Shown: positions 4,085-60,838 of the stretch, one piece after another | Layout of the letters: every line of letters begins with the position of its first letter | Numbering within the stretch: the first letter of the stretch is position 1 | Assembly: GCF_017876655.1 (NCBI RefSeq) | Contig: NZ_JAGIOK010000001.1 | Span: 1,240,001 to 1,304,000, forward strand | Direction of reading: 5' to 3' | Length of the DNA: 64,000 nt | From: Microbacterium imperiale | Lineage (GTDB): Bacteria > Actinomycetota > Actinomycetes > Actinomycetales > Microbacteriaceae | Made by a program: the position numbers and the translations under genes | Notes under the pieces: generated by a model | Told to the model about the DNA's origin: nothing | Databases searched by the model: none | What the model saw: only the letters and a program-made list of their open reading frames with translations

Positions 4085-4687
4085 TCAGATCCAGCCGCGC
4101 TCGCGCGCCATGATCGCCGCCTGCTGTCGCGTCGCGAGGCCGAGCTTGCCGAGCACGGACGAGACGTGGTTGCGCACGGTCCCCGCCGACAGGTGCAGGG
4201 ATGCCGCGATCTCGGCGATCGTCTCGCCGCGGGCGCCGGCGCGCAGCACGTCGAGCTCGCGGTCGGTGAGGGGGCTGCGCTCGTCGCTCAGGGCGTCGGC
4301 GGCGATCTCGGGGTCGACGTAGCGCCGTCCAGCCGCGACCTCGCGGATGACGGCGGCGACGTCGTCGGCCCGCCGCGACTTCGGAACGAACCCGTCCACC
4401 CCGGCGCTCAGCGCCCGGCGCAGCACCCCGGGTCGGGCGTGCCGCGTGACGACGACGCACCGCGACGGCACGCGCTGCCGGATGCGGGCGGCCGCCTCGA
4501 CCCCGTCGATGCCCGGCATCTCGAGGTCGAGCAGGCAGACGTCCGGGCGCAGCGCGAGGGCCTGTTCCACGGCGCTCTCGCCGTCGCGGCACTCGGCGAT
4601 GACGTCGAGGTCCTCTTCGAGGCGCAGCAGCGCGGCGAGGGCCGAGCGGATCATGTCCTCGTCGTCGGCGATCAGCACCCGGATCAT
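4085..4687 (-). CDS. NarL/LuxR-family response regulator
   Basis: A 200-aa response regulator. The receiver domain spans about residues 1-120, with acidic residues D8/D9, phospho-acceptor D54 in CLLDLEMPG, and a conserved threonine region around VVVTRHA. The C-terminal LuxR-type helix-turn-helix is visible as [22 protein letters not shown] followed by [18 protein letters not shown]. It overlaps the upstream histidine kinase by 4 nt (ATGA), so the two form one translationally coupled two-component system. Target genes are unknown; the neighbours do not point to a particular stimulus. Confidence 0.93.
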
Positions 4688-5991
4688 CGCGGCATCCCCT
4701 CACTCGGCGCCTCGGGGCGGAAGAAGGTGTCGCGTTCGCCGGGAACCTCCGGCGTGAACCCGGCAGATGCGCCGCCTTCGCGCCCCGGAGCCGCGGGAAC
4801 CGTCACCACCACGGTGAAGCGGTCGGGGTCGCGATGGGTCTTCAGGTCGCCGCCGACCACGCCGACGCGGTGGGCGATGCCTTCGAGGCCGGCGCCGGAG
4901 CCGAGCGTCGACTCCGCACCCCGATCGTTGGCGACGCTCATCCGCCAGAACGCGCCGTCCCGCGCCAGGCTCAGCTCGGCCCAGGTGCCGCCGCCGTGCT
5001 TGAGCACGTTCGTCGTGCATTCGCGCACGACGGGACCGAGGATGTCGGCGGGCGCCAGCACCGCGTCGGCGGCGACGTCCGATCGCACGCGCAGTCCCGC
5101 GGCGCGCAGCAGGTCGACAGCGTTCGCGAGCTCGTCGGGCAGGGGCACGCCGCGGAACCGCCCGGCGAGCTCGCGCGTGCCGGTGCGCGCCGCGTCGACG
5201 GACGCGCGAGCGAGGCGGATCTGCTCGGCCGCGGCATCCGGGTCACGCGGGAGCATCCGCTCGGCGAGCTCGAGCTGCAGCGCGATGACCTGCAGGTGAT
5301 GACCCTGCAGGTCGTGCAGCTCGCCGGCGAGGCGCAGGCGCTCCTGCGTCGCGGCGAGACGCGACTCGATGGCGCGGGCGCGGTTGAGCTCGAGCACGAC
5401 GTCCCACGACCACAGCGACAGCGCGATGGCGCCGGGCAGCGCGATGCCGAAGGTCGCGAGCGCGAACCCCATCGACCCGGCTCCCGGCACGGCCGCGTCG
5501 AGCCGCGCGCGTTCGGCGAACCAGAGCACGACCAGGGCGATCTCGACGAGCACGACGCCCCGCCACCGGATGCCGGGGCCCCAGCGCACGAGGCACAGCA
5601 CGGTCGCCAGCACCGACGCGCCGAAGAGGAACGACAGCGTCGTGACACCGACCACGACCGCCCCGACGATCCCGAGTGCCACGGGCCACGATGCGAAGCG
5701 GCGCAGGCGAGGCACCCGGTCGGCGTCGCTGACGTCGCCGTCCCGCCGGTAGCGCGCCAGCAGGACGATCGTCGCGGCGAGCACGACGGCGGCGCCCACC
5801 GCGTAGCCCACGGTGAGAAGCGGTGCACCGAGGCGCCGCGTCGCCACGAGCACCCACAGACCCCACACGGCCAGAGCGGATGCCGTGAAGAACACGATCG
5901 AGACGGCGATGTACCACGAGGTGGCCACGACCTCGCGGGCGAGCGCGGCGGGGCTGGCCACCGACGGGCTGCGGGACGCGTGGCTGTTCAC
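4684..5991 (-). CDS. DesK/NarX-type sensor histidine kinase (HisKA_3)
   Basis: A 435-aa membrane sensor kinase. The N-terminal half (about residues 22-200) holds a series of hydrophobic helices without a recognisable extracytoplasmic sensor domain, so it may sense the membrane itself. The HisKA_3 phospho-acceptor is H226 in GELHDLQGHHLQ, followed by a HATPase_c domain with N-box VRECTTNVLKHGGG and G-box GSGAGLEGIAHRV. The start used is GTG at 5991. It is co-transcribed with the downstream response regulator. Its ligand cannot be told from sequence. Confidence 0.9.
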   Translation of the reverse strand: MNSHASRSPSVASPAALAREVVATSWYIAVSIVFFTASALAVWGLWVLVATRRLGAPLLTVGYAVGAAVVLAATIVLLARYRRDGDVSDADRVPRLRRFASWPVALGIVGAVVVGVTTLSFLFGASVLATVLCLVRWGPGIRWRGVVLVEIALVVLWFAERARLDAAVPGAGSMGFALATFGIALPGAIALSLWSWDVVLELNRARAIESRLAATQERLRLAGELHDLQGHHLQVIALQLELAERMLPRDPDAAAEQIRLARASVDAARTGTRELAGRFRGVPLPDELANAVDLLRAAGLRVRSDVAADAVLAPADILGPVVRECTTNVLKHGGGTWAELSLARDGAFWRMSVANDRGAESTLGSGAGLEGIAHRVGVVGGDLKTHRDPDRFTVVVTVPAAPGREGGASAGFTPEVPGERDTFFRPEAPSEGMPR

Positions 5992-55871: not shown

Positions 55872-56739
55872 GGGCGACGAGCTCCCGCGCGAGGCGCAGG
55901 TAGGCCTGCGCGGCCTGATGCTCCGGCGCGAAGGTGATGATCGGCACGCCGGCGACCGACGCGTCGGGGAACTTGACGGTGCGGCCGATGACGGTCTCGA
56001 GGACGTCGTCGCCGAACGCCTCGACCACGCGCTCGAGCACCTCGCGGGAGTGCAGGGTGCGCGGGTCGTACATCGTCGCGAGGACGCCGTCGAGCTCGAT
56101 CGAGGGGTTGAGTCGGTCGCGCACCTTGTCGATCGTCTCGATGAGCAGCGCGACGCCGCGCAGTGCGAAGAACTCGCACTCGAGCGGGATGAGCACGCCG
56201 TGGCTGGCGGTCAGCGCGTTGACGGTGAGCAGCCCGAGCGAGGGCTGGCAGTCGACGAGGATGACGTCGTAGTCGCCCGACACGTTGCGCAGCACGCGCG
56301 AGAGGATCGTCTCGCGCGCGACCTCGTTGACGAGATGCACCTCGGCGGCCGACAGGTCGATGTTCGCGGGGATGACGTCGAGCCCGGGCACCGAGGTCGA
56401 CACGATCACCTCGCGCGGGTCGCGCTTGGTGTCCAGCAGCAGGTCGTAGATCGTCGGGACGTCGTGCGTCGCAATACCCAGACCCGCCGACAGCGCGCCC
56501 TGCGGGTCGAAGTCGACGGCGAGCACCCGGCGGCCGTACTCGGCGAGCGCGGCGGCGAGGTTGATGGTCGTCGTGGTCTTGCCGACGCCGCCCTTCTGGT
56601 TGCACAGCGCGATGATGCGTGCCGGGCCGTGACCGTCGAGCTTCGGCGGGGTCGGAAAACCTCGGTAGGGGCGACCGGTGGGTCCGATCGGGGTGTCTTC
56701 CGTGGGGGCCTTCCCGGCCTTCCGCGACTTGTCCGTCAC
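55855..56739 (-). CDS. ParA/Soj-family ATPase
   Basis: A 294-aa deviant-Walker ATPase. The P-loop is CNQKGGVGKTTTTINLA (about residues 46-62), with DFDPQGALSAGLG and the Walker B VDCQPSLGLLT. This is the scpAB-linked ParA, distinct from the origin-linked chromosome-partition ParA. GTG 56739 has GGAG 7 nt upstream; the frame is open upstream but antisense-like. It lies 101 bp downstream of the thioredoxin-like gene. Confidence 0.92.
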   Translation of the reverse strand: MTDKSRKAGKAPTEDTPIGPTGRPYRGFPTPPKLDGHGPARIIALCNQKGGVGKTTTTINLAAALAEYGRRVLAVDFDPQGALSAGLGIATHDVPTIYDLLLDTKRDPREVIVSTSVPGLDVIPANIDLSAAEVHLVNEVARETILSRVLRNVSGDYDVILVDCQPSLGLLTVNALTASHGVLIPLECEFFALRGVALLIETIDKVRDRLNPSIELDGVLATMYDPRTLHSREVLERVVEAFGDDVLETVIGRTVKFPDASVAGVPIITFAPEHQAAQAYLRLARELVARGAVA

Positions 56740-56840
56740 CGAGACTCCTGCTTTCCGTAGCGTGCGATCGATTCTCGCACAGGCATGCACGCGGCGCGGG
56801 GAGACCTTCCGGGCGAGGCGCGACCGGATTCCGCGAGCCG

Positions 56841-57932
56841 CTACCGGATTCCGCGCAGGGTCTCGACGTCGACGAGCCCCGAGCGCAGCGACCCTCCGGC
56901 GATGAGGCTCGGGATCGCGAGGGTGCGGATGTCGTTCTCGACCACGCCCCGCACCCGCTCGAGCTCGGCGGCGACCGTCGGAGAGTCCGCGAGGGCGTGC
57001 ACGGCGGCGAGGTCGTCCGGCGTGTACCCCGCTTCGACGAGCCAGTCGTCGAGCTGGCGCTGAGCCGCCTCCGGTGAGGCTGCGTTCATCCACGTCTGGG
57101 CGGCGGTCCCGTCGGCGACGGTGCCTGTGAAGAGGCGCTCGATCACGAACCAGTCGGGGGTCAGGACGGATGCCGCTGCCCCGGCGGGGGCCGACCGGTC
57201 CTGCTCGTGCAGCCGCAGCGCGGTGAGCACCCGTGCGATGAGCGGCGAGTTCGCGAACCGCGGGCCGGTCTCGGACTGGATCGGGTAGACGAGGTACGTC
57301 AGGTTGTTCGCCTCCGCGAACCCCGACTCGCGGACGTTCTCGAGCAGCTGCGCGCAGAAGCGGCATCCGGGGTCGATGATCTCGACGGCGGTCGGCAGGC
57401 CCTCGCGATAGCCGCCGAGGTACGTCGCCGCGACGGGTGCGAAGTCGGCGGCATCCCAGGTGCGCAGCCGGCTCGGCACGGCAGCGATCGTCTCGGCGAG
57501 CGACGAGACCTCGGCCCCCACCGCGCCGATCAGGTCGCCGCGGCCGAGGAGCTCGGCGAAGCCCGGGGCTGCGTCGATCGAGCACATCTCCGCGGCCAGC
57601 GAGCACGATTGCGCGTTCTGCTTGTCGCAGGTGCCGTAGACGTAGAGGTTCAGCCCGCTGCGGCCGAGGAGGTACACGCTCAGGATCATCGACAGGACGA
57701 GCAGCCAGGCGATGATCTCGATCCCGATGCTCGCGGGACGCACGAGGCGTGGCGCCCGGGTCGCGAGCGGCGCGAGGATCGACGACTTCACGTCGTCGCG
57801 GAAGGTCGTGTCGCACGGCCGGAAGGTCACGCGCCGCCAGGTGCATCCCCACGCTCGCCGCAGCAGGCGCCGGTACTTCGCCGAGACCGCCGACCCCAGC
57901 AGCACGACGATGAACGCGACGATGCAGACCAT
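56841..57932 (-). CDS. Membrane-anchored thioredoxin/DsbA-like protein
   Basis: A 363-aa protein with hydrophobic segments at about residues 1-17 and 68-92, then a large extracytoplasmic region. Three cysteines (C102, C110, C117) follow the second helix. A thioredoxin-like active site C190-RF-C193 sits in EIIDPGCRFCAQLLENV, and the cis-proline equivalent is P341 in LAIPSLIAGG, separated by a helical insertion as in DsbA. It starts 1 nt after the aminotransferase stop, in one operon with VKOR, so it is probably the thiol oxidase that VKOR regenerates. Substrates are unknown. Confidence 0.8.
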   Translation of the reverse strand: MVCIVAFIVVLLGSAVSAKYRRLLRRAWGCTWRRVTFRPCDTTFRDDVKSSILAPLATRAPRLVRPASIGIEIIAWLLVLSMILSVYLLGRSGLNLYVYGTCDKQNAQSCSLAAEMCSIDAAPGFAELLGRGDLIGAVGAEVSSLAETIAAVPSRLRTWDAADFAPVAATYLGGYREGLPTAVEIIDPGCRFCAQLLENVRESGFAEANNLTYLVYPIQSETGPRFANSPLIARVLTALRLHEQDRSAPAGAAASVLTPDWFVIERLFTGTVADGTAAQTWMNAASPEAAQRQLDDWLVEAGYTPDDLAAVHALADSPTVAAELERVRGVVENDIRTLAIPSLIAGGSLRSGLVDVETLRGIR

Positions 57933-57933
57933 G

Positions 57934-59178
57934 TCACAGTCCCCGCAGCATCGGCTCGAGCACGGCGAGGGCGGCGTCGACGTCGTCGGGGGTGTTGTGC
58001 GCGCCGAGGCTGAAGCGCACGAGCGGCGGCAGGCCGCGCCGGCCGGCGAGCCAGTGGTGCGCGCAGAAGTGCCCGCTGCGCACCTCGACCCCCGCCCGCG
58101 AGAGGAACACTGCGAGCCGGTGCGCGTCGACGCGATGGGGGCGGACCGACATCACGGCGGACGGGGCGGGACTTTCGACCGTCAGGTTCGGCATCCGCTC
58201 CAGACCGGCGGCGAGCCGCTCGGCGAGCGCCCGCTCATCGGCCTCGATCGCCGGCAGCTGCGGCACGAACCAGCGCAGCGCCGCGCCGAAGCCGATGATC
58301 GCGCTGCCGGGCAGCGACCCCGGCTCGAGGCGCGTGTGCAGGTCGGGCAGCAGCTCGTAATCGTCCTCGCCGACGCGGGCCACCTGTCCCCCGCCGAGGA
58401 ACATCGGCTCGAGCGCGTCGAGCAGAGCGGATGTCGCGACGACGAGTCCCAGCGTCGGCCCGTACATCTTGTGCGCCGAGAAGCAGAATGCGTCGGCGCC
58501 GACCCCGCGCAGACGCGAGAGGGCGTGAGGCGCCGCCTGCGCGGCATCCACGATGACGACGCCTCCTCGGCGATGCGCCCGCTCGACGAGTTCGGCGAGA
58601 CCCGACGTGAAGGTGCCGTCGACGTTGTCCATCGCCGAGACGACGAGGAGGGCATCCGACAGGTCGGTGTCGCCGATGACCGGTGACCCGTCGGATGCCC
58701 GGTCGACGACGAGCCGCGGGATGCCCGCGCGCCGGGCGAAGGTCATGGTCGAGAGGAAGACGGCGTTGTGCTCGGTGTGCGTCGTAATCACCCGAGCGAA
58801 CCGTCCGGGAGGAAGCTGATGCAGCAGCGCGTTGAGCCCGGCGGTCGTGTTGGCCGTGAAGGCGCAGGCGTAGCGGCGCGACGACAGGGCGAACGCGTCG
58901 AGCACGGCGCGGCGGACGGCGGCGATCTCATCGTCGACACGCCGTCCGGCCTCGTACTGCACGCGTCCTCCGCACGCGCCGCCGTCACGGTCATGGGCCA
59001 AGACGGCGTCGAGCACCGGCTGGGGGCGCAGCGTCTGGCACGCGGAGTCGAAGGCCAGCCGCGTGACCGGCACGTGCGCGAAGCCGTCACGGCGTGCGGC
59101 CGCGCGGATGCCGGCGGCATCCGGCAGTGGGCGGGGCGGCTGCCGGTCGGGGCGGCGGCGCAGGCGACCCCCGAGCAT
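57934..59178 (-). CDS. Class V aminotransferase, cysteine desulfurase/selenocysteine lyase-like
   Basis: A 414-aa PLP enzyme. The Schiff-base lysine is K237 in CFSAHKMYGPTLG; D211 and Q214 (VDAAQAAPH) hold the cofactor ring. H137 in THTEHNA and the loop cysteine C372 in VRSGHFCAHHW occupy the positions of the SufS catalytic residues, so sulfur or selenium abstraction is possible. VRFSLGAHNTPDDVD is the standard C-terminal motif. Start ATG 59178 overlaps the VKOR stop (TGATG). No SufU/E or Fe-S scaffold gene is next to it, so the acceptor is unclear. Confidence 0.85.
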   Translation of the reverse strand: MLGGRLRRRPDRQPPRPLPDAAGIRAAARRDGFAHVPVTRLAFDSACQTLRPQPVLDAVLAHDRDGGACGGRVQYEAGRRVDDEIAAVRRAVLDAFALSSRRYACAFTANTTAGLNALLHQLPPGRFARVITTHTEHNAVFLSTMTFARRAGIPRLVVDRASDGSPVIGDTDLSDALLVVSAMDNVDGTFTSGLAELVERAHRRGGVVIVDAAQAAPHALSRLRGVGADAFCFSAHKMYGPTLGLVVATSALLDALEPMFLGGGQVARVGEDDYELLPDLHTRLEPGSLPGSAIIGFGAALRWFVPQLPAIEADERALAERLAAGLERMPNLTVESPAPSAVMSVRPHRVDAHRLAVFLSRAGVEVRSGHFCAHHWLAGRRGLPPLVRFSLGAHNTPDDVDAALAVLEPMLRGL

Positions 59179-59774
59179 CACAGGCTCCCCAGCACGTCGA
59201 GCCGCAGCTGGGCGGCGACGGCGATCACGAGGTAGTCGATGACGACGACCAGGGGCGTCCAGGCGAGCAGCACGGCACCGACGCGTTCGGGTGCGCTCCC
59301 CCACAGGCCCGCCCGCAGGCTCCAGCCGACGGTCGACCAGAACAGCGGAATGGTGACGAGCCAGACCACCATGCACCACGGGCAGAGCGAGCCGTACTCG
59401 AAGATGCTGCGGAAGGCGAGCACGTGCACGAAGACGAACGCCCCCGCGACGAACGCCGCGAACACCCGCCAGTACCAGGCGCGAAGCCCCGCCGGGGCGG
59501 CGAGAGCCGAGACGCCGGCGAACACCGCGCCCGGGAAGAGCACGAGCCCGATGATCGAGTTGCTGAAGCCCAGCAGGTTGCCGCCCGGGCTGAGGAGGTT
59601 GGGGCCGCACGTGACGATCGGGCTGATGTCGCACGAGATCAGGGCCTCGGCGCCACGCAGCTGGCCGATGTACTCGTGGTACAGCAGGAACGACACGACC
59701 CACCCGAGCACACCCGCCACGATCCACCCGATCGCGAGCGCACGACCGGGGCGCACCGCGCGGCCGGGGGTCAT
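59178..59774 (-). CDS. Vitamin K epoxide reductase (VKOR) family protein
   Basis: A 198-aa inner-membrane disulfide-generating protein with four to five helices. The quinone-proximal active site is C131-PW-C134, and the loop pair C48 and C56 (ISCDISPIVTCG) relays electrons from a thioredoxin-like partner. GFSNSIIGLVLFP is also family typical. In Actinobacteria VKOR replaces DsbB. It opens a three-gene operon with the aminotransferase and the membrane thioredoxin-like protein; a 140-bp gap separates it from xerD. Confidence 0.92.
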   Translation of the reverse strand: MTPGRAVRPGRALAIGWIVAGVLGWVVSFLLYHEYIGQLRGAEALISCDISPIVTCGPNLLSPGGNLLGFSNSIIGLVLFPGAVFAGVSALAAPAGLRAWYWRVFAAFVAGAFVFVHVLAFRSIFEYGSLCPWCMVVWLVTIPLFWSTVGWSLRAGLWGSAPERVGAVLLAWTPLVVVIDYLVIAVAAQLRLDVLGSL

Positions 59775-59848: not shown

Positions 59849-59932
59849 GCAGGGCAGCGCCCGGGGGTCGCCGCAGCGTGCCCGAGGGTGGCCTCGGCGC
59901 GCCCGCGGGTGGCCTCAGCGCGCCCGGGGGTG
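59849..59932. repeat. Four 21-bp tandem repeats at the 3' end of xerD
   Basis: Four consecutive 21-bp units, 59849-59869, 59870-59890, 59891-59911 and 59912-59932, share the pattern GC-x-GGG/CTC-x-GCGC/TGCCCG-x-GGGTG. The last unit contains the xerD stop codon and final codons; the others lie in the gap before VKOR. The unit farthest from xerD is the most divergent. Because 21 is a multiple of three, the frame would stay open past the repeats if the stop were lost. Confidence 0.8.
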
Positions 59933-60838
59933 AGATGTCGCGTAGATCTCGCGCAGCGCGTCCACGGTGACGTGGGTGTAGATCTGGGTCGTCGCCACCG
60001 AGGCGTGACCGAGCAGCTCCTGCACGACGCGAACGTCGGCCCCGCCCTGCAGCAGGTGCGTCGCGAACGAGTGGCGCAGCGTGTGCGGCGACACGTGCGC
60101 GGTGAGACCCGCGCCCTCGGCCGCCCGCTGGATGATGAGCCAGGCGCTCTGCCGCGACAGCGGCGCACCCCGCACGCCGAGGAAGAGGCGCGGCGTCGCC
60201 CGGCCGCGGCGCGACAGCTCGGGCCGTGCTCGGGCCAGGTACGCGTCGACCGCGGCGCGCGCGTACGAGCCGACCGGCACGACCCGCTCCTTCGAGCCCT
60301 TGCCCCGCACGCGAAGGACGTCGCCGAGGGCGAGGTCGTCGACGTCGAGCTGCACGACCTCCGACACGCGCGCCCCGGTCGCGTACAGCAGCTCGAGCAG
60401 GGCCCGGTCGCGCAGCCCCGCGAGGTCGGTGGTCACGGCGTCGCCGGGCGCGGGGCCTGCGGCATCCAGCAGCCGCTCCACCTGATCGATCGTGAGGGCC
60501 TTCGGCAGCCGTCGCGGCGTCTTCGGAGGCCGCAGCCGCTGCGTGGGGTCGCCGGCGACCAGCCCCTCGCGGGCGAGGAACCGGTGCAGGCCGCGCAGGG
60601 ACGACTGCAGACGCGCGAGCGACGTCGCCGCGGGCGGTGGATCGGCCGCAGCGGCCTGCTCCGCGAATCGGGTCACGACCTCGGCGGTCACGGCCGCCGC
60701 GTCGTCGATGCCCTGCTCGCCGAGCCACGCCGTGTAGGCGTCGAGATCACGCCGGTAGGCCGCGACGGTGTGCGCCGACAGGCCACGTTCGACCGAGATG
60801 TGACGCAGGTAGGCCGCGACGGCGCGCTCGAGGCGCAC
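59915..60838 (-). CDS. xerD: Tyrosine recombinase XerD
   Basis: A 307-aa site-specific recombinase that resolves chromosome dimers at dif with XerC. Catalytic residues are R157 (ATGARVSEV), K180, H252 and R255 ([10 protein letters not shown]), H278 (LLGHASV) and nucleophile Y287 (TTQIYTHV). The N-terminal SAM-like domain is complete. GTG 60838 lies one base after the NUDIX stop. The 3' end lies in a tandem repeat. Confidence 0.95.

Follow-up and report, generated by a model that had tools for sequence, protein, structure and literature searches.

The genes considered here encode a VKOR-family membrane protein, a class V aminotransferase and a membrane DsbA-like protein, and lie in a single stretch of the 3.17 Mb Microbacterium imperiale genome (G000:C1:1240001-1304000, 64,000 nucleotides, referred to below as the window). 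To our knowledge, known desulfurases pass sulfur on to soluble partners in the cytosol and known DsbA proteins work with an outward-facing recharger, and we know of no desulfurase partner for ScsC, alpha-DsbA2, BdbD or BcfH, members of the DsbA superfamily which differ from the DsbA-like protein here in sharing 11–20% identity with it. The available text of PMC8300815 describes type II cysteine desulfurases as relying on specific partners, as having the signature RXGHHCA, and as marked by an insertion near the pyridoxal phosphate (PLP) lysine which is missing from type I enzymes. MdbA of Actinomyces oris is recharged by VKOR (available text of PMC5478893), and the export of persulfide species has been proposed for PexA of Rhodobacter capsulatus (available text of PMC6424863). 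No characterised system of the present kind was found in the literature searched, where papers joining both terms concern ferroptosis or RavA/ViaA, in agreement with a preliminary description of this DNA which knew of none with these three genes.

The locus resembles SufS–SufE and SufS–SufU in the catalytic residues and type II insertion of its aminotransferase and in pairing a single enzyme with a single dedicated gene for a cysteine-bearing partner, but differs in that this partner is predicted to be a DsbA-like protein of the membrane, the motif is RSG(H/Y)FCAH-like, the enzyme has two more invariant cysteines, and the genome holds a separate SufS. It shares with the MdbA/DsbA–VKOR systems of Actinobacteria a predicted DsbA-type fold, a CxxC motif and, in most Microbacterium loci, an adjacent VKOR, whereas the protein here has a two-helix module with loop cysteines, six invariant cysteines beyond the CxxC and a constant desulfurase neighbour, and VKOR is facultative. 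PexA is an ABC transporter and is likened by proposed role alone, as a tie of PLP/desulfurase-like chemistry, outer sulfane sulfur and DsbA proteins has been put forward for it (available text of PMC6424863). The fixed unit at our locus is the aminotransferase plus the DsbA-like protein, with VKOR as an optional member, and a probable desulfurase gene beside an eight-cysteine membrane DsbA in some actinobacteria hints at undescribed sulfur or thiol handling at the membrane. The features concerned are as follows.

56841..57932, minus strand: membrane DsbA-like protein, 363 amino acids, with eight invariant cysteines
57561..57932, minus strand: N-terminal module of the DsbA-like protein (about residues 1–124), recognised by charge bias and also present in the distant relatives P0264 and P0265
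57934..59178, minus strand: probable SufS-like type II cysteine desulfurase (class V aminotransferase, PF00266), 414 amino acids
59178..59774, minus strand: VKOR-family membrane protein of the slot type (PF07884), 198 amino acids, with loop cysteines and CPWC
59915..60838, minus strand: xerD, the upstream edge of the slot
56700..56785, minus strand: parA start region (leader plus the first 40 bases from the GTG at 56739), the downstream edge of the slot, compared by BLAST

The three minus-strand open reading frames were found where the preliminary description had placed them, with the VKOR stop and aminotransferase start overlapping as TGATG and a single base (57933) between the aminotransferase stop and the ATG of the DsbA-like gene. 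The surrounding block, xerD ... parA–scpA–scpB, is also arranged as described there, and parA runs on the minus strand from a GTG start at 56739 (read from the sequence) to 55855. The same description had called the three genes one operon, and this holds insofar as they resemble an operon and occupy a variable slot, but VKOR is no constant member and its overlap rarely recurs: it was seen again in one (L055) of the 15 named loci with a VKOR-to-aminotransferase distance available, these distances being extrapolated from the query and including one locus, L073, where VKOR lies on the opposite side.

The constancy of the remaining pair is seen in 50 loci of named genomes found by a pattern search using the membrane-protein alignment. 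Their hosts include Microbacterium, two unclassified Microbacteriaceae, Cryobacterium (23 loci), Glaciihabitans, Kineosphaera, Piscicoccus and Mobilicoccus, as well as Promicromonosporaceae, Cellulomonadaceae, metagenome-assembled genomes (MAGs) called Propionibacterium and Propioniciclava, and one Stenotrophomonas-titled record. The aminotransferase gene lies directly upstream of the DsbA-like gene on the same strand in 50/50 (it is broken in L102), its stop and the following start being −1 to +6 bases apart in every case when the start is taken as the nearest in-frame codon picked by script, and the same order is found in the family member G062. By eye, a Shine-Dalgarno-like purine run can be seen at the 3' end of the desulfurase gene, over the codons for a conserved GL.

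Presence and absence give the same picture. The membrane protein was matched (at 1e-20) in 23 of 295 Microbacterium genomes and the aminotransferase (at 1e-60) in 24, these being all 23 membrane-protein carriers plus G422, where a partial match adjoins xerD at the end of a contig (Fisher 2.3e-33 for co-occurrence, uncorrected for kinship). The enzyme was not found without the membrane protein among 238 genomes of the order, where the three matches at 1e-60 were all pair carriers, nor among 150 genomes of the family, where the three matches at 1e-50 all had the pair. In a phylum-wide sample of 346 genomes the membrane protein was present in one, that of M. imperiale itself, and it had no match at 0.01 in 72,556 plasmid records. 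Adjacency in 50/50 loci rules out a chance arrangement of the pair.

We note two irregular records among these loci. For L102 (Cryobacterium breve ERMR7:08) the desulfurase match is split into three parts and that of the membrane protein ends at residue 232, while a second C. breve record (L081) matches whole; the L102 pattern reflects decay or sequence errors. L069 (JACEFY010000096.1), titled Stenotrophomonas maltophilia P13, is a Microbacterium-type xerD–VKOR–pair–parA contig equal in length to L046 (G414) and with its genes placed as there, and looks mislabelled or contaminated.

The aminotransferase matches PF00266 (Aminotran_5; 2.8e-56, 191.5 bits against a cut-off of 21.5), and among solved structures the chains closest to it are SufS/CsdB-kind cysteine desulfurases (best E 1.4e-34). 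The SufS model TIGR01979 gives 4.4e-50 and 170.7 bits, which does not reach its cut-off of 475.1, and the other models listed score lower. Conservation was assessed in 121 sequences, the window's own and 120 listed of 285 homologues, in the numbering of P0001, which runs one residue ahead (K238, H138 and C373 there are K237, H137 and C372). H138, D212, Q215, K238, R368, C373 and R389 are invariant in 121/121, which bears out the earlier description of a desulfurase-like PLP enzyme with K237, H137 and C372, including the conservation of C372 that it had proposed as a check. In an alignment with the genome's SufS and two IscS/NifS-type enzymes the PLP lysine, stacking histidine, catalytic cysteine and two arginines are retained; these residues bind the cofactor, stack on it, carry out catalysis and hold the substrate, respectively. 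The type II insertion near the PLP lysine is present in the aminotransferase and the genome's SufS and not in the two IscS/NifS-type paralogues (judged by eye). The signature is RSG(H/Y or other)FCAH-like and not RXGHHCA, with Phe replacing the second His in 121/121 and the first His mostly replaced by Tyr (59/121). Two further cysteines, C47 and C69 (C48 and C70 in P0001), are invariant, and C233 (P0001) is found in 118/121. In the alignment C48 falls opposite the second alanine of the SufS DSAA stretch and C70 opposite the residue preceding a SufS histidine, which we take to line the active site.

Taken together, these features suggest that the aminotransferase is probably a type II cysteine desulfurase of SufS-like kind. 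The genome's own SufS passes the model with 483.9 bits and two IscS/NifS-type enzymes are also present (best models NifS, below cut-off), and since there is a separate SufS the aminotransferase would be an additional desulfurase. Two other identities were considered. The ergothioneine enzyme EgtE was rejected, the TIGR04343 score being 29 bits against a cut-off of 400. PADLOC models of the phage-defence proteins SspA and DndA score 5.2e-22 and 2.6e-18, but the defence systems have SspBCD or DndBCDE partner genes, the resemblance is at the level of the fold, and the sole constant neighbour seen is the DsbA-like gene (a minority of the neighbour genes were scanned against a library), so that a phage-defence role is not favoured.

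In the DsbA-like protein, eight of eight cysteines are invariant in 121 sequences (C3, C30, C40, C102, C110, C117, C190 and C193) and there is no other cysteine-rich column. The N-terminal module consists of two predicted membrane helices and a K/R-rich loop with C30 and C40, followed by C102, C110 and C117. The charge bias follows the positive-inside pattern, with a mean of 11.5 K+R against 3.0 D+E over residues 19–66 and 4.9 against 10.6 over residues 98–180, from which the C30/C40 loop is predicted to be cytosolic and the DsbA-like domain to face outward, as the preliminary description had it in placing this domain outside the cytoplasm. A DsbA-type fold is predicted by structure modelling, a thioredoxin fold with a helical insertion, a CxxC (C190-x-x-C193) and a cis-Pro loop; the structure comparison covers mainly residues 154–363, and the sequence support for the fold is weak (6eez, E 0.064). 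The window protein has no Pfam match at 0.001, and Thioredoxin_4 is matched by 3 of 27 relatives at E up to 0.01. The distant relatives P0264 and P0265 exceed the Pfam cut-off for the DsbA domain (Thioredoxin_4/DSBA) and have the same two-helix cysteine module, over which there is no Pfam model; as the module recurs in these proteins it may be a widespread unnamed domain. P0264 and P0265 had no match on viral contigs, and on plasmids the matches were 23–28% identical with none covering 80%.

The VKOR protein matches PF07884 (1.2e-27, 97.1 bits against a cut-off of 27.5) and has a CPWC active site and the loop cysteines SCDISPIVTC; a CxxC active site and two loop cysteines are a feature of the VKOR family. 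At 1e-60, its slot type was matched in 55 of the 295 Microbacterium genomes. Pair carriers account for 21 of these (out of 23) and genomes without the membrane protein, counting G422, for 34 (out of 272); this VKOR type and the membrane protein co-occur (Fisher 2.4e-15, uncorrected for kinship). The two carriers lacking a match are G286 and G194, the contig of the latter beginning inside the VKOR gene (L058). Of the 18 named loci of the Microbacterium type, 16 have VKOR in the stretch read (the exceptions being L064, truncated by the start of its contig, and L070, with VKOR elsewhere). VKOR follows the pair rather than preceding it in L052, L053 and L073, and in G383 is elsewhere in the genome. 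At the loci outside the Microbacterium type, no VKOR match at 1e-5 was found in the flanks of 32/32 (at most 8 kb was read, and far less at some). Some VKOR was present in 25 of the 29 genomes of these loci that were searched, and neither a VKOR nor a DsbB match was found in the other four, G783, G786 (Piscicoccus intestinalis NBRC 104926), G787 and G789; as the records for G783, G787 and G789 are MAGs, absence from them is weak evidence. VKOR as an obligate partner is rejected on the VKOR-free flanks, on VKOR without the pair and on pair genomes in which no VKOR was found. Since 288 of 295 Microbacterium genomes have some VKOR (that of M. imperiale has three), a recharger would usually be available, though none is tied to the pair.

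This shifts the emphasis of the preliminary description, which had seen the two outer genes as a natural couple and the middle gene as unexplained: the aminotransferase is the constant partner and VKOR the facultative one. It had also suggested checking the linkage between aminotransferase and VKOR, which fails in the flanks read at all 32 loci outside the Microbacterium type, while the adjacency of the aminotransferase to the DsbA-like gene holds in 50/50. We also note that in the pair-free loci L139, L141, L178, L180 and L184 the slot VKOR adjoins a lipoprotein-like gene with conserved cysteines, septum-formation-lipoprotein-like by eye, whose product is a possible substrate of this VKOR.

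Our reading of the locus, which we hold tentatively as plausible rather than probable, is of a membrane unit dedicated to sulfur or thiol handling: the desulfurase would serve the cysteines of the loop, and the outer domain would be reoxidised by VKOR if that is present. Enzyme and membrane protein would be made as one dedicated unit, probably by coupled translation, and the former, with PLP on K237 and C372 as nucleophile, would convert cysteine to alanine and an enzyme persulfide, as its residues suggest. The predicted cytosolic loop of the membrane protein may dock the desulfurase through C30/C40 and accept the sulfur; the membrane DsbA is proposed as acceptor because type II enzymes need a partner and the sole constant partner here has two loop cysteines. 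Outside the membrane, the DsbA-like domain (C190-x-x-C193) together with C102, C110 and C117 would carry out thiol–disulfide or persulfide chemistry, and where VKOR is present it would reoxidise the outer CxxC and pass electrons probably to menaquinone, by analogy with MdbA, in a unit that exists without VKOR as well. The purpose in the cell is probably the protection or maturation of envelope thiols, and copper or oxidative stress would be the first candidate condition, given the multicopper-oxidase neighbours in part of Cryobacterium. Such a pair would link the mobilisation of sulfur inside the cell with the thiol chemistry of the envelope in a small, testable system. We regard as somewhat unlikely the further step of a transmembrane sulfane-sulfur relay, in which the cytosolic desulfurase would load the membrane DsbA for the delivery of persulfide sulfur or oxidising power to outer thiols, with VKOR as an optional recharger.

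Several observations weigh against the dedicated unit. The aminotransferase misses the SufS cut-off and its catalytic motif departs from RXGHHCA; the membrane protein's structure model is of low confidence over residues 1–50 (block means 57–65); no cysteine lies mid-membrane, so no sulfur or electron path across is visible; and C30/C40 could equally bind metal or form a disulfide. VKOR is also not marginal, with the slot type in 21 of 23 Microbacterium pair carriers and some VKOR in 25 of 29 other carriers, and the hint of copper is limited to 11 of 23 Cryobacterium loci while neighbours elsewhere differ. A possible though doubtful alternative is that the enzyme makes a small diffusible product (hydrogen sulfide or cysteine persulfide) from cysteine, cystine or another amino acid, while the DsbA, with or without VKOR, oxidises outer thiols or counters metals and no sulfur is transferred directly. 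The multicopper-oxidase-cluster gene upstream in those 11 loci, DUF305 nearby in some, the CDF-type transporter upstream in L071 and L072 (by eye) and the two extra invariant enzyme cysteines aligning beside SufS active-site positions would all suit such a product, which however leaves the near-zero spacing in 50/50 loci and the invariant loop cysteines unexplained.

The same loop cysteines might instead hold a metal centre, with sulfide from the desulfurase used to assemble an iron–sulfur cluster (or a zinc site) on C30/C40 of two subunits, a cluster which would sense or drive the outer domain's redox state. In keeping with this are the dedicated desulfurase, the two invariant cysteines on the predicted cytosolic side and the common feeding of iron–sulfur assembly by desulfurases (available text of PMC8300815), but each loop has two cysteines only, a cluster motif was not identified in the analyses made, and no dedicated iron–sulfur scaffold is seen, since the pair lacks a third gene common to all groups; we consider it unlikely. 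Very unlikely, in our view, is a functional pair of VKOR and DsbA-like protein, providing an extra line of oxidative folding beside an incidental aminotransferase. The frequency of this VKOR type in Microbacterium carriers (21/23 against 34/272) and its adjacency in most loci speak for it, and against it are the 34 genomes with this VKOR and no membrane-protein match (one, G422, with a desulfurase fragment), the VKOR-free flanks of 32/32 other-group loci and the 4 of 29 such genomes without VKOR or DsbB. That unrelated genes have merely met by chance in a variable slot is scarcely credible: the xerD–parA slot does hold other genes in other species, but the pair is adjacent in 50/50 loci over several families with differing flanks, and chance may in part account for VKOR alone.

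Every fetched Microbacterium locus that includes both xerD and parA has the pair between these two genes (18/18). The slot was surveyed in 20 pair-free genomes, of 39 searched for parA and picked without looking at the slot, and the xerD–parA gap was 40–107 bases in nine and 316 bases in one, with VKOR present in three, 4.65–4.88 kb in three, and xerD not within the 7 kb read in the remaining four. VKOR is inside the slot in 12 of 19 pair-free VKOR carriers read out, and the G383 locus, read additionally, does not have it there. Two close relatives with VKOR and no pair, L165 and L166 (pyrG 98–99% identical), have about 142 bases from the VKOR stop to 18 bases before the parA GTG and are identical to the window over the 86 bases at the parA start (56785–56700). 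A third (pyrG 97%) has 183 bases there and 98.9% identity over 91 at the parA start, and no convincing remnant of the pair was found in the three among the tblastn matches listed (E 10).

Pairwise distances of the membrane protein correlate with the pyrG and xerD distances (Pearson 0.83 and 0.88), and those of the desulfurase do so more loosely (0.69 and 0.77; a comparison of distances over 22 loci, 20 with pyrG, in which the pairs are non-independent). As the membrane-protein distances track pyrG and xerD, mostly vertical descent with many losses is favoured, suggesting from these comparisons that the pair in Microbacterium is old and repeatedly lost; a recent horizontal arrival, for the same reason, is not favoured.

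Neighbouring genes outside the slot hint at metal or thiol stress, though not uniformly. Directly upstream of the pair in Cryobacterium (23 loci) is a multicopper-oxidase-cluster gene in 11 and a UvrA-like ABC gene in seven, and a DUF305 gene is nearby in some; these genes were called by a simple script with one member per cluster Pfam-scanned, and L075 was left out of the table. The CDF-type transporter of L071 and L072 was identified by eye, and in Piscicoccus a DsbA gene (Thioredoxin_4, 80.4 bits) lies just upstream of the enzyme.

The slot has some further features of its own. An inverted repeat, GTGCGA-7-TCGCAC, is found in the parA leader at 56762–56780 of the window, within the stretch identical in the two close relatives, and is possibly a regulatory site. 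Between VKOR and parA, at the position which the pair occupies in the window, L165 has another inverted repeat (approximately TACGTTCGTCGGA ... TCCGACGAACGTA, by eye), with a similar one in L166. Finally, L049 has a transposase-like gene (4577–5878, identity by eye) between xerD and VKOR, and the slot therefore also accepts insertion elements.

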